A stretch of DNA of 22,145 nucleotides from a virus: the IMG/VR virus record IMGVR_UViG_3300021962_006197, positions 1 through 22,145 of that record. The stretch is one strand, 5' to 3'. The translations under genes were made by a program, and so were the position numbers. The notes beneath the pieces were generated by a model, which made no database searches, was not told where the DNA came from, and saw nothing but the letters and a program-made list of their open reading frames with translations. Each line of letters starts with the position of its first letter. Position 1 is the first letter of the stretch. Shown piece by piece: positions 6,089 to 12,795 of the stretch.

Positions 6089-6765
6089 ATCATATTAAGT
6101 TTATCATTAACAAATTTTTTAATGTATTGTACTAACATGCGAATATATTTTTCTTTATCTCTTTCTTCATATATCTCAACTTCTCCATCTTCACATGCCA
6201 TAATAATTACAAATTTTTTAACCGAAAGACCTGTGAGTTCATGAAGCATACACGCATAAGCGCAACATTGGACAAAATATCCATCAATCCATTCTCTGGG
6301 TTTTGGTTTTTTAGAAGTTTTGAAGTCAATGATAGAAAGTTCTCCGTCGAATTCTGCAATACAATCGACAGTCCCAGCAATACCTAAGTATTCGCTATAA
6401 AGAGATCCTTCCAGAGCATAAATGTTATTTATACGATCTAAAGTTGGTTTTGCGAGATAGAATAAGTGTTGTGACAAAGGTTGAACATTAGAAAGTTCTC
6501 GATTATTTAAATAATCTTCAACAAGAGTATGCATATCGGTTCCTCGACTTGTTGCTTGTCGAGTAATTTTATCTGCTTCTTCTACCCCTACTCTTTCACG
6601 CCATTTGTTAAAGAAATCTTTTTTATAATGGCTAATAACAGAAGTGATGGATACTAATCGAAGTAGTTCTTCTTTAGTAGGAACTTTATAATAACGAACT
6701 CCATCAATAGTCTCCCTTTGAAGATTTGGAAGACCTAGTTCTTTGTGTTCAAAATTCAATTTCAT
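6085..6765 (-). CDS. PD-(D/E)XK exonuclease (RecB/MGME1-like)
   Basis: The 226 aa protein has the nuclease motifs in order: SITSVI (39-44), RGTDMHTLVE (74-83), GIAGTVDC with D134, IIDFKTSKK with D147 and K149, then the YFVQCCAYA helix (163-171) where Q and Y follow the active site. This is the RecB/MGME1-type PD-(D/E)XK exonuclease fold found in T4-like cyanophages. It could degrade host DNA or trim replication and recombination intermediates. It overlaps the upstream dioxygenase gene by 17 bases. Its stop codon forms part of the -35 box of the promoter for gp33. Confidence 0.82.
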   Translation of the reverse strand: MKLNFEHKELGLPNLQRETIDGVRYYKVPTKEELLRLVSITSVISHYKKDFFNKWRERVGVEEADKITRQATSRGTDMHTLVEDYLNNRELSNVQPLSQHLFYLAKPTLDRINNIYALEGSLYSEYLGIAGTVDCIAEFDGELSIIDFKTSKKPKPREWIDGYFVQCCAYACMLHELTGLSVKKFVIIMACEDGEVEIYEERDKEKYIRMLVQYIKKFVNDKLNMI

Positions 6766-7438
6766 AATTATTTTTTCTGTATATTGGAATTGATTCCTTT
6801 TCGCAGGTTAAATGATGTATAAAAAATACTTGGGTTAATCTTGGTTCAAAATCATTAGCATAAAAATTAGATTCTTTATGAAATATATCTGACTGATACA
6901 TAATCATTCTATTAAAAACATTTTTAACTTCTAAAGTTTTTTCAAATTTAGAATCATGCTTTTTTATAGACTTTATATATTCATCATAATCTATTTCTTT
7001 ATCTGAGTAAAGAATATCTCTAGAAGTATAATCTAATTTTTCTAGAGTATTTGATTTTTTTAACCTATAAAAAGATGTTCCTGAATCTAAATCCGAGATT
7101 TCATTTAAATATATTACACCAGCAGCAGCATAATCAATATCTATATGTTGCCATCCAGTATTTAAAAAAGATTTTTTTTCTTTATTATGAGGATATATTT
7201 TTTGAAAATGTGTAGATACTGCCCATTCAACTCTGGTGAAATCATAATCAAATAAAATAGAAAATAAACGAGAACAAAAAGAATCAAAAAAAGATTTATT
7301 TATTTTGTATAAGTTCTCTGTTCTTTCTCCTGGATAGTTTCCAGGAAGTTTATTATAATCTAATGATAATGCGAAGTCTCTTATTCTTTTTGGATCTGAA
7401 TAAAAATCATCTACACATAATGTTGGAATAAACTTCAT
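6749..7438 (-). CDS. DUF6445-like 2OG-Fe(II) dioxygenase
   Basis: The 229 aa protein carries WQHIDIDYAAAGVIYLN with H98-x-D100, a distal H187 (SDIFHKE) and R200 (PRLTQVFFIH), the order expected of a double-stranded beta-helix 2OG-Fe(II) oxygenase. The N-terminal DDFYSDPKRIRDFAL and the PGNYPGERT segment resemble DUF6445 proteins. It differs from the oxygenase next to gp32 in overall sequence, so the phage carries two distinct enzymes. It is coupled to phoH by an ATGA overlap upstream and overlaps the exonuclease downstream. The substrate is unknown. Confidence 0.7.
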   Translation of the reverse strand: MKFIPTLCVDDFYSDPKRIRDFALSLDYNKLPGNYPGERTENLYKINKSFFDSFCSRLFSILFDYDFTRVEWAVSTHFQKIYPHNKEKKSFLNTGWQHIDIDYAAAGVIYLNEISDLDSGTSFYRLKKSNTLEKLDYTSRDILYSDKEIDYDEYIKSIKKHDSKFEKTLEVKNVFNRMIMYQSDIFHKESNFYANDFEPRLTQVFFIHHLTCEKESIPIYRKNNYEIEF

Positions 7439-8190
7439 AAATTAAGTTCATTTTTTGCAATTAGATATTCCTTACAAATTCCAGATCTTACAATATCTTC
7501 AATTGTAAATTCAATTGTTTCAAATGATGGCATAATACCAAGAATTTTCATAAAGTCAACAATACCATTTTTCTCATTTGTTTTAACAAGATCAGATTGT
7601 GTTGCATCTCCACAGAACATAATCTTACTGTTCTCACCTACACGAGTGATGATAGAATCAAGTTCGTGGAAGTTTAAGTTCTGAAATTCGTCAACAATAA
7701 TAATACAATTATCAAGAGTTGTACCACGAATGAATGATGTACTCCAGAATCCAATAGTTTCTTGAGTTTTTAAATTACCATAAAGCATTTCAAAGTCAGA
7801 ATCTGATGGCATCTGGAACATATACTTTACCATATTCTTATAGGGAATTTGATAAAGAGATGACTTATCTTCATGATCGCCAGGAAGAAAACCAATTTCC
7901 CGAGTAGCAACAAGAGACCTAACGATATAAATTTTTTCGTAAGGAGTTGTTTCATCCAACACATCTTTGAGTGCATTGTAAAGTGTGATAAATGTTTTTC
8001 CAGTTCCTGCTGCTCCATAAGCAACAATATGCTTTCCTTCAGAATAAGAATTGAAAAGTTTTGTTTGATTTTCAGTTAATGGTTCAATATCTAAAAGATA
8101 AGAACTATTAATTGGTTTTTTTCTTTTCATCTGCTTTGCAGACATTCCAATTCCAATTTCTTGCTCTACTGATCTTCTTTTTCTTGCCAT
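7435..8190 (-). CDS. phoH: PhoH-like P-loop ATPase
   Basis: The 251 aa protein has Walker A GAAGTGKT (59-66) and Walker B IIIVDEFQN (163-171), then a GDATQSD sensor-like segment (194-200), the arrangement of PhoH-family ATPases. The N-terminus is basic (MARKRR...MKRKK). phoH is nearly universal in cyanophages; in host bacteria the family is linked to phosphate starvation and RNA handling, and its phage role is not settled. It follows a small conserved gene by 6 bases and overlaps the dioxygenase start by four. Confidence 0.92.
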   Translation of the reverse strand: MARKRRSVEQEIGIGMSAKQMKRKKPINSSYLLDIEPLTENQTKLFNSYSEGKHIVAYGAAGTGKTFITLYNALKDVLDETTPYEKIYIVRSLVATREIGFLPGDHEDKSSLYQIPYKNMVKYMFQMPSDSDFEMLYGNLKTQETIGFWSTSFIRGTTLDNCIIIVDEFQNLNFHELDSIITRVGENSKIMFCGDATQSDLVKTNEKNGIVDFMKILGIMPSFETIEFTIEDIVRSGICKEYLIAKNELNL

Positions 8191-8196
8191 AAGTTT

Positions 8197-8442
8197 TTAC
8201 CAAATTTTTTGATTTGCACCAGGTGATTTTTTCACTTTACTCATAACATCATTCCATCCAGGATGTTTCTTGGCAAGTTTATCTTTCCACTCGCCAACTT
8301 CACCAAAACCTGGAGCATTTTCTGGAGTATAGTATCTTTCCCATTCAGGATTATCTTTACACCATTGATCCCAGTCATGAATACTCATGACGATCTCTTT
8401 TGTCTCTCCAGTCTCTTTATTTTTTACGGGATATGTTGCCAT
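8197..8442 (-). CDS. Small conserved cyanophage-type protein
   Basis: The 81 aa protein begins MATYPVKNKETGETKEI. A longer frame from 8484 exists, but the ATG at 8442 sits next to the stop of the carbamoyltransferase half-gene (8444) and is the better start. The sequence is polar and rich in tryptophan (DWDQWCKDNPEWERYY, GEWKDKL, HPGWND), ending with a basic PGANQKIW. The start resembles FmdB-type small regulators, but the zinc cysteines of that family are not present. I recognise no function. It lies between the carbamoyltransferase array and phoH. Confidence 0.7.
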   Translation of the reverse strand: MATYPVKNKETGETKEIVMSIHDWDQWCKDNPEWERYYTPENAPGFGEVGEWKDKLAKKHPGWNDVMSKVKKSPGANQKIW

Positions 8443-8443
8443 A

Positions 8444-9580
8444 CTAATTTTCAGATTTACTATTATTGTACACCATAACCTCAAGTTCTACAAGTTTTTT
8501 CATATAGTCTAAACTATATTTTGGACCATTGTATAATGTTGTTAATGGCGATTTTTTCATACTATTAGAATGTTTATAATAATTATATTTTACCGATCCA
8601 TATGCCTGACAACCATCATTGGCAACAGGATCAATGAAAATATTTAAATCAGGAAATTCTTTTTTTATTATCGAATTACCTAAAATATTTAGAGCACATC
8701 CTCCAGAGAAAACTAAATTTTTGCAGTCTGGTTTTAGTTCTACTGCTTGTTTAACTCTATACAGAAATACTTTTTCCAAATACTTTTGAACTTTAAATGC
8801 AAGATTTGCTTTCTTTTGAAAATTTAAATCTTTTAATTGTGGGTAATATTTATCGTTTAAGGTTCTGCTATAAAGTAATAAGTTTCTATTTGTATAAATT
8901 GTATCTTCAAAATTAAAGTTTGGTAGATCACTATCTTCTTCTCCATAAGAAGATAGTCCCATAGTTTTTCCTGGATTTTCTCTACCAAAACCCAAATACT
9001 TTGAAACTGTCCCGTAACAAACCCCAACATCAAATGAATGAATTAATTCATAGTTACTAGGAATATCTAATGTAATATCAGTTAAATCTTGTGGTTCAGA
9101 ATAGTATAATGTTTTATGTAATAATTCAAAATTTGCCGGATAAGAAGCATAATAAATGCTAGTAGTTTCACTTGCATCTAATATTTCATGTTCTTCTGAT
9201 AATGGAAAACTTGCTCCCCATCCATCAATAACTAAGCAAATAGCATCATCAAATCCAGACCCATAAAATGCAGATGCTGCATGATACAAATGATGTTCTT
9301 TATGATCTACAAATACATCATCAATTTTTATTCCATCTTTTTTTAAAAAGTTTATACATATCTTAACTTCATGATCTCTTTCTGGATTTTGATTAATAAA
9401 AATTATATGATCTATAGTATTAGTATAAGATTTTATTAATTTTAAAAAAGAAAAAGGCATATCAGAATCTTTTTTTATTCTACTTATTCTTTCTTCTTGA
9501 ACATATAATAAAACCTCTTCATCTTCTAAAATGCACAATGAAGAATCATGCTCTGCATTGGAGATACAAACATTAATCAT
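8444..9580 (-). CDS. Carbamoyltransferase N-terminal half, copy 2 (Kae1-like domain)
   Basis: The 378 aa protein is the N-terminal, Kae1-like part of a NodU/CmcH/TobZ-family O-carbamoyltransferase. It has the metal-binding HHLYH (96-100), DGWG (119-122), GKTMGLSSYG, SGGCALN and a late DPVANDG with the expected aspartate. In this family this half makes carbamoyl-adenylate and transfers the carbamoyl group; the C-terminal YrdC-like half is needed to form it from carbamoyl phosphate and ATP. No YrdC-like part is fused: the chain stops about 30 residues after the LYNGP linker. It overlaps the C-half gene upstream by 8 bases. It is the last gene of the C-N-C-N array. Confidence 0.88.
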   Translation of the reverse strand: MINVCISNAEHDSSLCILEDEEVLLYVQEERISRIKKDSDMPFSFLKLIKSYTNTIDHIIFINQNPERDHEVKICINFLKKDGIKIDDVFVDHKEHHLYHAASAFYGSGFDDAICLVIDGWGASFPLSEEHEILDASETTSIYYASYPANFELLHKTLYYSEPQDLTDITLDIPSNYELIHSFDVGVCYGTVSKYLGFGRENPGKTMGLSSYGEEDSDLPNFNFEDTIYTNRNLLLYSRTLNDKYYPQLKDLNFQKKANLAFKVQKYLEKVFLYRVKQAVELKPDCKNLVFSGGCALNILGNSIIKKEFPDLNIFIDPVANDGCQAYGSVKYNYYKHSNSMKKSPLTTLYNGPKYSLDYMKKLVELEVMVYNNSKSEN

Positions 9581-10139
9581 TTTTTAATACAACCATTTTT
9601 AATTCTGGAAAATATACATAATCCATTTTAGATTTAGTAAGTGTCTTTATTGCATCACTTACAGTTTCAACTATAGGATCTCCCGCTACATTGAAAGATG
9701 TATTTAATAACATAGGTACTTTAGTTCTATCATAGAATTCATTTATTAAGTTATAGTAATTTATATTTTGTTTTTCATTTACAGTTTGAATTCTACAAGT
9801 GCCATCCACATGAACTATTGCTGGAACTTTGTCTTCTTTATTCTTTAAAATATTAAATGAAAATGTCATAAAAGGTGAGGAAGAAATACCAAAAGTTTCA
9901 AACCATTGCGACACTTCTTCTTCCAAAATGCTGGCAGCAAATGGTCTAAAAGATTCTCTCATTTTTACTATATTTACAATATCTTTTCCATTAGGAACTC
10001 TTGGATCAAAAATTATAGATCTATTTCCAAGTGCTCTTGGACCACATTCAGATTGTCCTTGATATATTGCACCAATTTTTTGTTCGATAATATAATTTAC
10101 TATAATATCATCAGAGACATTTTCTAATATTTTAATCAT
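9573..10139 (-). CDS. Carbamoyltransferase C-terminal half, copy 2 (YrdC-like domain)
   Basis: The 188 aa protein is the stand-alone C-terminal YrdC-like domain of the NodU/TobZ family: GPRALGNRSIIFDPR (33-47), RESFRPFAASILEE, HVDGTCRIQTV, and NTSFNVAGDPIVET. In fused enzymes this domain converts carbamoyl phosphate and ATP to the adenylate. The usual QGR-x-E reads QGQSE here, so one conserved arginine is a glutamine. It starts immediately after the stop of the preceding N-half gene (no gap), exactly at the domain linker, and overlaps the next N-half gene by 8 bases. Roughly half its residues match the other C-half copy. Confidence 0.88.
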   Translation of the reverse strand: MIKILENVSDDIIVNYIIEQKIGAIYQGQSECGPRALGNRSIIFDPRVPNGKDIVNIVKMRESFRPFAASILEEEVSQWFETFGISSSPFMTFSFNILKNKEDKVPAIVHVDGTCRIQTVNEKQNINYYNLINEFYDRTKVPMLLNTSFNVAGDPIVETVSDAIKTLTKSKMDYVYFPELKMVVLKND

Positions 10140-11354
10140 TCATCCAAGATATAGATTTTTAAGTGGTCTAACAGTCTTATCTTTCATAACACCATGATGA
10201 AACCATTTAGCGGCACCAATTGCTGTTCCAGCATCATGTGATATTGGATCAACAAAAAAGTTTATATTGGGGAAATGTTCAAGATAATTATAATTATTTA
10301 CACAGTTTAAGAAATAACCGCCAGATAATACAACATTCTTAGATCCAGAAATATCAATTGCTTTTTGAATAAGTCTTATAGTTTGTTTTTCAGTTTGTTC
10401 TTGAACTTTTTTAGCAATATTAGAATATTGATAAAAATCATAAGATGTTTTATCAAGTGTTTCCGGATTTATAAAAGGAGTTGTATCCAATGCACTAACT
10501 ATATCTTCTATAAACTCTCCAGGTGCTGGTTCTGTTACCCAAATGTTATTAAAATTATAAAAGAATTCTTCTTCAAGAATTTTTTCTTCTTTTTCAGGAT
10601 CTCTTCTATCATAAACATGTCCTGGAATTTTGTAATCAACATTTCCATAAGAGGATAATCCCATTACTTTACCAGCGGAATCATCTCCAGTATTAAAAAG
10701 GTAAGAAAGAATACTAAACAAATTTCCACAACTATTACTATGAGTATATACTTGCTCATAGGGTTTTGATTTATCTACCAAATATATTTCTTCAGAATTG
10801 GGATTTGGATCTAACAATCCATTATGTTTAAATAATGGTTGTATTCCATTATTATAAGAACATTTAAAAATAGTTTCTACTTCTCTAAATGGATATTCAT
10901 ACTTATCTTTAATATTATTATAATAAAAATCTTTATCATATGATCCTCCACCATCCATTACTAAAGCAACAGCATCTTCAAAACCGGAGGCATAAAATGC
11001 ATTAGAGGCATGATATATGTGATGATTTTCATGATAGAAAATTTTAGTTTTATATTTTATTCCACCTTCTTCAATCTTTTTTGATATGCATTTTATTATT
11101 TTTTCATCAAGTTCTTCTTGTCCATAAGATGAAAAAATAATGTAATCAATTTCATCAGTATATCTTTTGACAGTTTCTAAACAAGGAAAGTATGGAGTTA
11201 CTATATCATGATCATTTATATCATTATAAAATTCTTGATATCCATAAAGTTTTTTTCTTGTTAATCTTTCATCCTCCAAGAAAAATAAAATTTCACCATC
11301 TTTTAAAAGACAAGTTGAGGAATGGTGAGATATGTTTATACCTAAGATATACAT
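10140..11354 (-). CDS. Carbamoyltransferase N-terminal half, copy 1 (Kae1-like domain)
   Basis: The 404 aa protein shows the Kae1-like half of a NodU/TobZ-type carbamoyltransferase: N-terminal GINISHHSSTCLL, metal motif HHIYH (111-115), DGGG (134-137), GKVMGLSSYG (228-237), SGGYFLN (344-350) and DPISHDAG (369-376). It ends abruptly at LYLG, the point where fused enzymes enter the linker to the C-terminal domain. The next gene begins at the adjoining base. The start codon overlaps the upstream C-half stop (TAATG). It differs clearly from the other N-half, so the two are old paralogues or separate acquisitions. Confidence 0.88.
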   Translation of the reverse strand: MYILGINISHHSSTCLLKDGEILFFLEDERLTRKKLYGYQEFYNDINDHDIVTPYFPCLETVKRYTDEIDYIIFSSYGQEELDEKIIKCISKKIEEGGIKYKTKIFYHENHHIYHASNAFYASGFEDAVALVMDGGGSYDKDFYYNNIKDKYEYPFREVETIFKCSYNNGIQPLFKHNGLLDPNPNSEEIYLVDKSKPYEQVYTHSNSCGNLFSILSYLFNTGDDSAGKVMGLSSYGNVDYKIPGHVYDRRDPEKEEKILEEEFFYNFNNIWVTEPAPGEFIEDIVSALDTTPFINPETLDKTSYDFYQYSNIAKKVQEQTEKQTIRLIQKAIDISGSKNVVLSGGYFLNCVNNYNYLEHFPNINFFVDPISHDAGTAIGAAKWFHHGVMKDKTVRPLKNLYLG

Positions 11355-11923
11355 TAATTATTCTCCGAAAATACTAATTTCCTTAATTCTGGAAGATACA
11401 AATATTCTATTTCAGATCTTTGTATTACATCTAAAGCATCTTTAACTGTTTCGACAATTGGTTCTCCCCCTAAATTGAAGGATGTATTACCAACAAAAGG
11501 AATTCCAGTGATATTTTTGAATGCTGAAATTAAACTATAATAATGATAATTTTGTTCTTTATTTACAGTTTGTATCCTACATGTTTTATCTATATGTAAG
11601 ATACATGAAAGTTGTTCTTTAAATTTATCATCTTTTACTTTAACTGCATATGACATGAAGGGAGTATTCTTTAATCCATTTGTTATAAAATAATGATCGA
11701 AATTTTCTTCCAAAATAGTACCTGCAACTGGTCTATACCACTCCCTACCTTTTATTTTGTTTATATAAAGATGTCCATTACGAAGTCTTGGATCAAATAG
11801 AATAGATCTATTGCCAAGTGCTCTTGGTCCTGCTTCAGATCTACCTTGAAAAATAGCAACAATATTATTATTGGAAATTAATTTAGCAACAGTAAAGTAA
11901 TCTACATCTTTAAATAATTTCAT
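11354..11923 (-). CDS. Carbamoyltransferase C-terminal half, copy 1 (YrdC-like domain)
   Basis: The 189 aa stand-alone YrdC-like half carries the canonical QGRSEAGPRALGNRS (26-40), REWYRPVAGTILEE, HIDKTCRIQTV and NTSFNLGGEPIVET. It lies upstream of an N-half gene, the reverse of the N-then-C order of fused enzymes, so it cannot be a broken remnant of one fused gene in situ. It is the first gene of the array, 26 bases after the thyX stop. A late-promoter-like AATAAATA overlaps the thyX stop codon just upstream. Confidence 0.88.
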   Translation of the reverse strand: MKLFKDVDYFTVAKLISNNNIVAIFQGRSEAGPRALGNRSILFDPRLRNGHLYINKIKGREWYRPVAGTILEENFDHYFITNGLKNTPFMSYAVKVKDDKFKEQLSCILHIDKTCRIQTVNKEQNYHYYSLISAFKNITGIPFVGNTSFNLGGEPIVETVKDALDVIQRSEIEYLYLPELRKLVFSENN

Positions 11924-11945: not shown

Positions 11946-11953
11946 TATTTATT
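11946..11953 (-). promoter_or_regulatory. Possible late promoter octamer AATAAATA before carbamoyltransferase array
   Basis: Minus-strand AATAAATA (11953 to 11946) overlaps the thyX stop codon and ends 22 bases before the first carbamoyltransferase start. It matches the NATAAATA late motif. Such octamers occur by chance in AT-rich DNA, so this is weak evidence for late expression of the array. Confidence 0.3.
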
Positions 11954-12641
11954 CGATAATTAATGATGGAGCATCTACACATTCTTCACAAATATTACTT
12001 CTTGTCCATCCTAAGGCAGAAGAAATTGTTGGGAACTGACAGACAAAGATACACTTTGCTTTTTCTGCAATATCCATATGTTCTTTTTGTGTTCCATTTC
12101 CACTACGAAGATCAATATAATGTATCCATGAACGTATAGATCCAGACATATAAAGACGAGTAGGAGTTGCTAGAGGTAATACAAACCTTGCACATTCTTT
12201 GGCAATTCCATCTTCCAACATTTTCTGATACAAATCCATTGAATGTTTAAAATGATCTTGCATCAAAATTTGATACTTCTGAATTATAAAAGGATCAACA
12301 TCATTAATACTATTTTGACGATTCTTAGTGTCTTGACGACGGAGTTCAGGAACTGGAATTTCTTCTCCTAGAAGAGAAGAATCTGCATACCGTTGCGAAA
12401 ATTCTTGATATGTAAATGATCTATGCCGAAGGATTTGAGCCGCTAGTCCACGAGTTGTATTAATTTCAAGGGTCATAAATCCTTGTTCAAAAATACTCCA
12501 GTGTTGATTCTTAATGCAATATTTAATTAGACCTTCAAAACTATTACTTTCTTGATTATTGGGATTGCTTACACGAGCACAATAAGCAATGTGCTTTTCT
12601 GCATCGGGAGTTACACTAATTAATTTAACTGATTGATTCAT
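11949..12641 (-). CDS. thyX: Flavin-dependent thymidylate synthase ThyX
   Basis: The 230 aa protein contains the ThyX motif RHR-x7-S (residues 72-82, RHRSFTYQEFS followed by QRY) and the C-terminal RSWIHYIDLR block. ThyX makes dTMP from dUMP with methylene-tetrahydrofolate, FAD and NADPH. An open frame extends to 12677, but the ATG at 12641 (MNQSVKLIS) follows the stop of the upstream small gene by one base and gives the usual family start, so I prefer it; 12653 is also possible. It supplies thymidine nucleotides for phage DNA synthesis. It lies directly upstream of the carbamoyltransferase array. Confidence 0.92.
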   Translation of the reverse strand: MNQSVKLISVTPDAEKHIAYCARVSNPNNQESNSFEGLIKYCIKNQHWSIFEQGFMTLEINTTRGLAAQILRHRSFTYQEFSQRYADSSLLGEEIPVPELRRQDTKNRQNSINDVDPFIIQKYQILMQDHFKHSMDLYQKMLEDGIAKECARFVLPLATPTRLYMSGSIRSWIHYIDLRSGNGTQKEHMDIAEKAKCIFVCQFPTISSALGWTRSNICEECVDAPSLIIE

Positions 12642-12642
12642 A

Positions 12643-12795
12643 TTAGTAGTCATTGGTTTCTTCAAAGATTTCGTCATAGTCTGTTATTGGAAAAGTTGTC
12701 TCTTCATAATCTATATCGGAATAAACTTCACTTTTAAGTTCTTTTAATATCTGTTCAAGGTTATATATAATCCTTGTTAATTTTTCTTTATCCAT
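12643..12795 (-). CDS. Small acidic protein of unknown function
   Basis: The 50 aa frame runs from the ATG at 12795 (MDKEKLTRIIYNLEQIL) to a stop one base before the thyX start. The first half is an amphipathic helix; the second half is strongly acidic (DIDYEE, DYDEIFEE). No ribosome binding site stands out. It begins 31 bases after a transcription terminator, so it would open a new transcription unit with thyX. No family recognised. Confidence 0.5.
   Translation of the reverse strand: MDKEKLTRIIYNLEQILKELKSEVYSDIDYEETTFPITDYDEIFEETNDY

Follow-up and report, generated by a model that had tools for sequence, protein, structure and literature searches.

TobZ-type O-carbamoyltransferases are single chains in which a Kae1-like domain (N) is followed by a YrdC-like domain (C). 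Nucleotides 8,444 to 11,923 of the viral record IMGVR_UViG_3300021962_006197 raise the question of why the same two domains should be encoded there by four separate genes, transcribed in the order C-N-C-N, and what such a cassette would make. The stretch analysed as a whole (positions 1 to 22,145 of that record, hereafter the window) is part of the genome of a T4-like cyanophage. Besides the cassette it carries psbA-/psbD-type photosystem, gnd-like, speD-like, thyX, phoH, gp32-like and baseplate genes, the photosystem and baseplate names having been assigned by reading the open reading frames (ORFs). The cassette is likely to be a split, modular two-component class III O-carbamoyltransferase, in which the C halves activate and the N halves transfer.

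Four separate and intact half-genes

The cassette genes are the following, in transcription order:

C1, 11354..11923, minus strand: stand-alone YrdC-like half (Carbam_trans_C), first gene of the cassette; 189 amino acids (aa), PF16861 E=5e-56.
N1, 10140..11354, minus strand: stand-alone Kae1-like half (Carbam_trans_N); 404 aa, PF02543 E=3e-27; N1-type clade (support 99).
C2, 9573..10139, minus strand: second stand-alone YrdC-like half; 188 aa, PF16861 E=3e-60; C2 clade (support 99/97).
N2, 8444..9580, minus strand: second stand-alone Kae1-like half; 378 aa, PF02543 E=3e-26; N2-type clade.

ORF coordinates and Pfam matches confirmed the initial annotation, which had described four half-genes in this order with overlaps of 1, 0 and 8 bases: C1 and N1 share one base (TAATG), N1 and C2 abut (TGAATG) and C2 and N2 overlap by 8 bases. 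Solved relatives of the halves are TobZ, GdmN, VtdB and NovN. The AlphaFold2 (AF2) model of C1, with a mean predicted local distance difference test score (pLDDT) of 91, had as its best Foldseek match the YrdC-like domain of TobZ in the carbamoyl-adenylate complex (E=5e-16, template modelling (TM) score 0.85). The weaker N2 model (pLDDT 75), in which the last helix comprises residues 357-377, best matched the Kae1-like domain of TobZ (E=4e-15).

In a residue census made in TobZ numbering, for which the iron-binding residues of TobZ and GdmN were taken from PMC9633730, N1 and N2 presented all the iron ligands (H114, H118, D137 and D338) and the base H14, and C1 and C2 all of R418, G421, R423, K443, T529 and the further catalytic residues checked. 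The same conservation extends to other phages carrying such genes at the same slot, between thyX and an rbpA-like gene or phoH: the four iron ligands (HHDD) are found in 121/121 stand-alone N halves and the activation residues in 85/85 C halves, with T529 replaced by Ser in 4.

Among the features that define class III enzymes, the Kae1-like domain with two His and two Asp is thus found in N1 and N2 (residues, PF02543 and the fold match of N2), and the YrdC-like domain with carbamoyl-phosphate/ATP residues in C1 and C2 (residues, PF16861 and the fold match of C1). The single chain with N before C is replaced by four separate ORFs, and the cassette is therefore designated a "split variant", homologous by domain and not by architecture. 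Scored against the NodU equivalog model (NCBIfam NF041651), the halves reach 22-101 bits, compared with a curated cut-off of 1000 bits. The TsaC/TsaD pair of N6-threonylcarbamoyladenosine (t6A) synthesis was not the closest match, carbamoyltransferases scoring far above TsaC, TsaD and Kae1 in both sequence and fold comparisons. By analogy with the fused enzymes, the C halves are predicted to be carbamoyl-adenylate synthases and the N halves carbamoyl transferases.

One could suppose that the four ORFs are functionless fragments, left when fused N=C genes were recently interrupted by nonsense mutation or decay. The N1 stop and the C2 start are indeed contiguous and in one frame in the window, and the junction falls exactly at the domain linker (LYLG, stop, Met), as initially annotated. 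However, of the 26 cassettes examined, only 4 have these two genes in the same frame, and the other 22 have them in different frames. A search for the same gene order in cyanophage and metavirome contigs, suggested in the initial annotation, was successful: the isolate S-SCSM1 carries the same four separate genes in the same place, and 17 IMG/VR contigs span the slot completely, from thyX through C-N-C-N to rbpA/phoH, with each half as an ORF of its own. This recurrence of the same four genes excludes chance, sequencing error and decay.

The four genes are, moreover, under purifying selection. Between the window and one related contig (L026), the ratio of nonsynonymous to synonymous substitution rates (dN/dS) was 0.24 for C1, 0.24 for N1, about 0.17 for C2 and 0.32 for N2; values of 0.08-0.36 were obtained in other cassettes, and mostly 0.06-0.17 for lone N genes. 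Separate ORFs in 19 slots, together with the differing frames, rule out a sequencing error or a nonsense split of fused genes, and with all active-site residues conserved and the dN/dS of every gene well below 1, functionless fragments are hardly conceivable. The checked residues, the dN/dS values and the recurrence agree with the earlier statement that all four genes keep their main motifs and show no decay. Intact separate halves acting as a two-subunit carbamoyltransferase, as also proposed there, are the most likely reading.

A hot spot between thyX and phoH

The slot that houses the cassette is delimited in the window by these genes:

thyX (Thy1), 11949..12677, minus strand: upstream border of the hot spot; PF02511 E=3e-45; flanks the cassette in nearly all relatives.
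RbpA-like small gene, 8197..8442, minus strand: downstream border and conserved neighbour; no match in the Pfam scan, S-SCSM1 homologue labelled "transcription factor RbpA".
phoH, 7435..8190, minus strand: next downstream core gene; matches the annotated phoH of S-SCSM1, S-RIM44 and others.

Eighty complete slots, from contigs or isolates, showed a restricted set of layouts: C-N in 27 (S-RIM44, Sf-CH3 and AG-345-D19 included), N alone in 19, C-N-C-N in 19 and C-N-C-N-N in 10, with fused N=C followed by a lone N (3), C-N-N-C-N (1) and C-N-N-C-N-N (1) as rarer forms. N halves outnumber C halves in 34/80 slots and equal them in 46/80; in none are C halves in excess, and the undeduplicated set agrees. 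The extra N halves are full length and all N2-type. The slot is a hot spot at which the set of transferase halves accompanying one or two activator halves changes by gain, duplication and loss.

Slots with N alone are informative as to how C halves disappear. In the N tree the lone N genes are nested within the C-N clade (support 99), so that the neighbouring C was lost and the N, which is under selection, retained. Five of the lone-N slots (L084-L088) have an N-C pair directly upstream of thyX, and longer records of lone-N phages hold C domains elsewhere, in fused genes (three in L073, one or two in L081 and one in L072). In the 80 best-matching bacterial loci found with a C query the genes are fused in 80/80, and the split form therefore looks viral.

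Some points weigh against this picture. Most scans used N queries and would have missed slots containing C only; about 100 loci found with C queries included no full-length lone C. Many of the contigs are near relatives, and the 80 slots are not 80 independent events. Finally, the lone-N contig L080, a fragment of 28 kb, shows no C domain.

The excess of N halves in 34/80 slots would also be expected if the extra copies were not enzymes and had a scaffolding or regulatory role towards the C halves, comparable to that of TsaB towards TsaD, and a subgroup (N2 of L131, L143, L146 and L153, and N of L265) in which His14 has been lost to Asn would fit this role. Such an explanation is improbable, since all slot N halves hold the four iron ligands, all others, extra N2-type copies included, keep His14, and the N halves are under purifying selection.

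The substitution itself was seen in the lone N genes of L131 (6543-7394), L143, L146 and L153 and in that of L265 (4558-5418), with the iron ligands all intact. TobZ H14N is the mutant that was crystallised with trapped carbamoyl-adenylate (3vex); to judge from the sequences, N halves bearing Asn14 may be inactive, slow, or dependent on a different base. In L131 (7360-8166) and L265 (5393-6187) the N half is directly followed by a radical S-adenosylmethionine (SAM) gene, in the position that an rbpA-like or epimerase gene occupies in other phages. Separate C-N and N-C-N sets were also found away from the thyX/phoH slot (L272-L277, L288-L290, L292, L293, L307, L309, L311, L315 and L320); splitting is therefore not confined to this locus.

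Origin of the C-N order and pairing of the halves

The initial annotation held that only the central pair, N1 and C2, could have come from a split fused gene. This view is not supported by the differing N1/C2 frames or by the contig L265 (AG-345-D19), whose C is probably a fused gene lacking its N. The layout in L265 is thyX-C-N-radical SAM and in L131 and L143 thyX-[N=C]-N-radical SAM; the C of L265 is sister to the C part of the fused gene (support 100/99), and the lone N that follows this fused gene is the sister of the L265 N (support 100). In addition, the lone C of L265 starts with LLTGPTYDIP, the counterpart of the sequence that links the two domains in the fused protein (LYLGPTYDLS in L131). 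A linker at the start and fused sisters in the same place indicate that a fused gene lost its leading N domain without changing position. A C-N pair can thus obtain its C from a fused gene minus its leading N, an origin for which neither permutation nor a split of the central pair would be needed. Had an N instead been gained by a stand-alone C, the linker relic would have to be explained in some other way, which makes this reverse direction less likely. A fused gene at this locus had been named as a finding that would overturn the four-gene pattern; such genes do occur (L131, L143, L146 and L153), accompanied by a lone N, and explain the pattern instead of refuting it.

A second relic is located at the end of the distal N half:

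N2 C-terminal tail, 8447..8527, minus strand: GPKYSLDYMKKLVELEVMVYNNSKSEN; GPxY + helix motif, as in fused and N2-type relatives.

N2-type halves, that of the window included, end with this linker motif though no C follows, and N1-type halves end at LYLG. A linker tail without a following C suggests that N2-type halves derive from fused genes that lost their C. In the viral contigs L139, L119, L113 and L157, two or three fused N=C genes are arranged in tandem; it is possible that such arrays were the raw material for C-N-C-N, through loss of the outer domains.

In the N tree, one clade (28 rows, support 99) unites the lone N genes, those of two-gene units and, from each cassette, the N that comes first, and the distal N2, N3 and N4 make up another (24 rows, support 95); the N1 and N2 types are ancient, separate subfamilies. 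In the C tree all cassette C2 fall in one clade (support 99/97), C1 in two, and the C of two-gene units in another. The backbones of the trees are weakly supported.

These trees bear on the possibility that one C-N unit was duplicated, as the initial annotation proposed, giving two independent enzymes (C1/N1 and C2/N2) with fixed partners. Two-gene C-N units do exist at the same locus (27 slots, among them S-RIM44 and Sf-CH3), the contig L040 shares its C2-N2 part with L041 and L047 in both trees, and in approximately unbiased (AU) tests neither a single clade of cassette C1 and C2 (p-AU 0.53) nor one of all slot C halves was rejected (p-AU 0.17-0.53 over the tests of C halves). Against the proposal, a quick tree gave a borderline rejection of a single clade of N1-type and N2-type (p-AU 0.041), two-gene units have an N that groups with N1 (support 99) and not with N2, the linker tail is found in N2 and not in N1, and extra N2-type copies without a C do not suit strict pairs. 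Duplication of a two-gene unit is possible as far as these sequences go, while two independent enzymes with fixed partners are rather unlikely.

It had also been suggested that matching topologies of the N and C trees would reveal which halves pair. This approach failed: distances of all four halves correlate about equally (r 0.70-0.79 after ThyX/PhoH correction), and neither correlations nor topologies assign partners, because all four halves are co-inherited.

Predicted chemistry, acceptor and known counterparts

Activation and transfer are established steps of the fused enzymes TobZ and GdmN. In the split two-component enzyme favoured here, each C half would, by homology to these proteins and from its conserved residues, convert ATP and carbamoyl phosphate to carbamoyl-adenylate. 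Each N half would act as an iron-binding transferase, taking the intermediate by means of a transient or stable N/C complex and carbamoylating an acceptor hydroxyl. With the two steps on separate chains, the intermediate would be either passed within the N/C complex or released. One activator half probably serves several transferase halves, an arrangement favoured by the excess of N and by the loss of C beside N genes that are still selected. Since N1-type and N2-type are ancient separate subfamilies, the cassette probably modifies at least two acceptors or positions.

The acceptor is most likely the sugar of a nucleotide sugar or a surface glycan, although the indications are weak. A gene of the GDP-mannose-dehydratase/epimerase family lies behind N2 in many cassettes, including that of S-SCSM1, and a separate fused copy in S-SCSM1 sits among GDP-sugar and fucosyltransferase genes. 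Against this stands the absence of the epimerase gene from the window, which makes a sugar acceptor a weak proposal for the window phage. A bolder and more tentative extension is combinatorial carbamoylation, in which general C-half synthases might supply the labile intermediate in trans to N halves whose number can grow, the phages retargeting the reaction by adding or swapping N genes at the hot spot. If true, this would be the O-carbamoylation counterpart of the two-protein t6A pathway.

A different product, the carbamoylated DNA base 5-carbamoyloxymethylcytosine, could be envisaged by comparison with the MetaGPA 5-hydroxymethylcytosine (5hmC) carbamoyltransferase (PMC8670742). That enzyme is the characterised phage-encoded member of the family with the same two domains, often beside a gene of the thymidylate-synthase family, and the cassette adjoins thyX. 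Yet the neighbour here is ThyX (PF02511) and not the PF00303 family, and no PF00303 protein (the dCMP hydroxymethylase family) was found in the complete genomes of S-SCSM1, S-RIM44 and Sf-CH3 or in three long contigs, so that the cassette phages lack a hydroxymethylase partner in the six records examined. Furthermore, the MetaGPA enzyme is fused and carries G421C and R423T, whereas G421 and R423 are canonical in all slot C halves. With PF00303 missing from these records and residues 421 and 423 canonical, DNA-base carbamoylation is disfavoured and appears very unlikely.

Compared with TobZ (3ven), GdmN, VtdB, NovN and NodU, the cassette has the same two domains, iron ligands, base His14 and carbamoyl-phosphate/ATP residues; it differs in its separate genes, its C-N-C-N order and the unequal numbers of halves in relatives. 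The t6A pathway is alike in principle, as TsaC/Sua5 (YrdC) makes an acyl-adenylate for a separate Kae1-fold transferase (TsaD/Kae1), but its substrate is different and similarity is far lower (C half against YrdC, Foldseek E=6e-4), the cassette halves belonging to the carbamoyltransferase family.

This family was already known in cyanophages (PMC3037559), where the "Nol-like carbamoyltransferases" (PHROG 1601, fused, and PHROG 20469, C only; P-SSM2, S-SSM7, S-CAM) belong to the same family and virus group. The P-SSM2, S-SSM7 and S-CAM genes are, however, fused N=C and located at other loci. In S-SSM7 a lone N half labelled "Nol" (L266 9022-10131) lies 0.5 kb behind a fused carbamoyltransferase and adjoins denV and a tryptophan halogenase gene. 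The nearest counterpart is the set of genes 194-197 of Synechococcus phage S-SCSM1 (MK867354), with an identical layout at the same locus and annotated as four "carbamoyl transferase (nol)" genes. The compared halves share 44-60% protein identity with those of the window, and S-SCSM1 has the additional epimerase-family gene after N2. The S-SCSM1 genome paper (PMC9602691) does not mention these four genes, and neither split halves nor a variable cassette turned up in a literature search. The split, shuffled layout thus appears undescribed, the chemistry being familiar.

The annotation of such genes can be corrected accordingly. They are often labelled plain "carbamoyltransferase" or explained as pyrimidine synthesis, and the paper on the cyanophage S-SZBM1 ascribes a carbamoyltransferase of this type to de novo pyrimidine synthesis (PMC9146016).

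The pyrimidine-synthesis step is catalysed by aspartate carbamoyltransferase, which is of an unrelated enzyme class. In structural studies of TobZ and GdmN, activation and transfer are assigned to two sites within a single protein; independently encoded halves, whose numbers vary and which are under purifying selection, make it directly testable whether carbamoyl-adenylate has to be channelled within a chain or can be passed between proteins. The cassette also supplies separable parts for combining activator and transferase, and represents, for viruses abundant in the ocean, a rapidly changing element at a core locus.

Lastly, the window contains a DUF6445 gene (PF20043, positions 6749-7438) between phoH and a Cas4-like nuclease gene, a position from which it is absent in relatives with the same cassette; in other contigs (L006, L011-L014, L105 and L107) DUF6445 genes occur near fused carbamoyltransferases.

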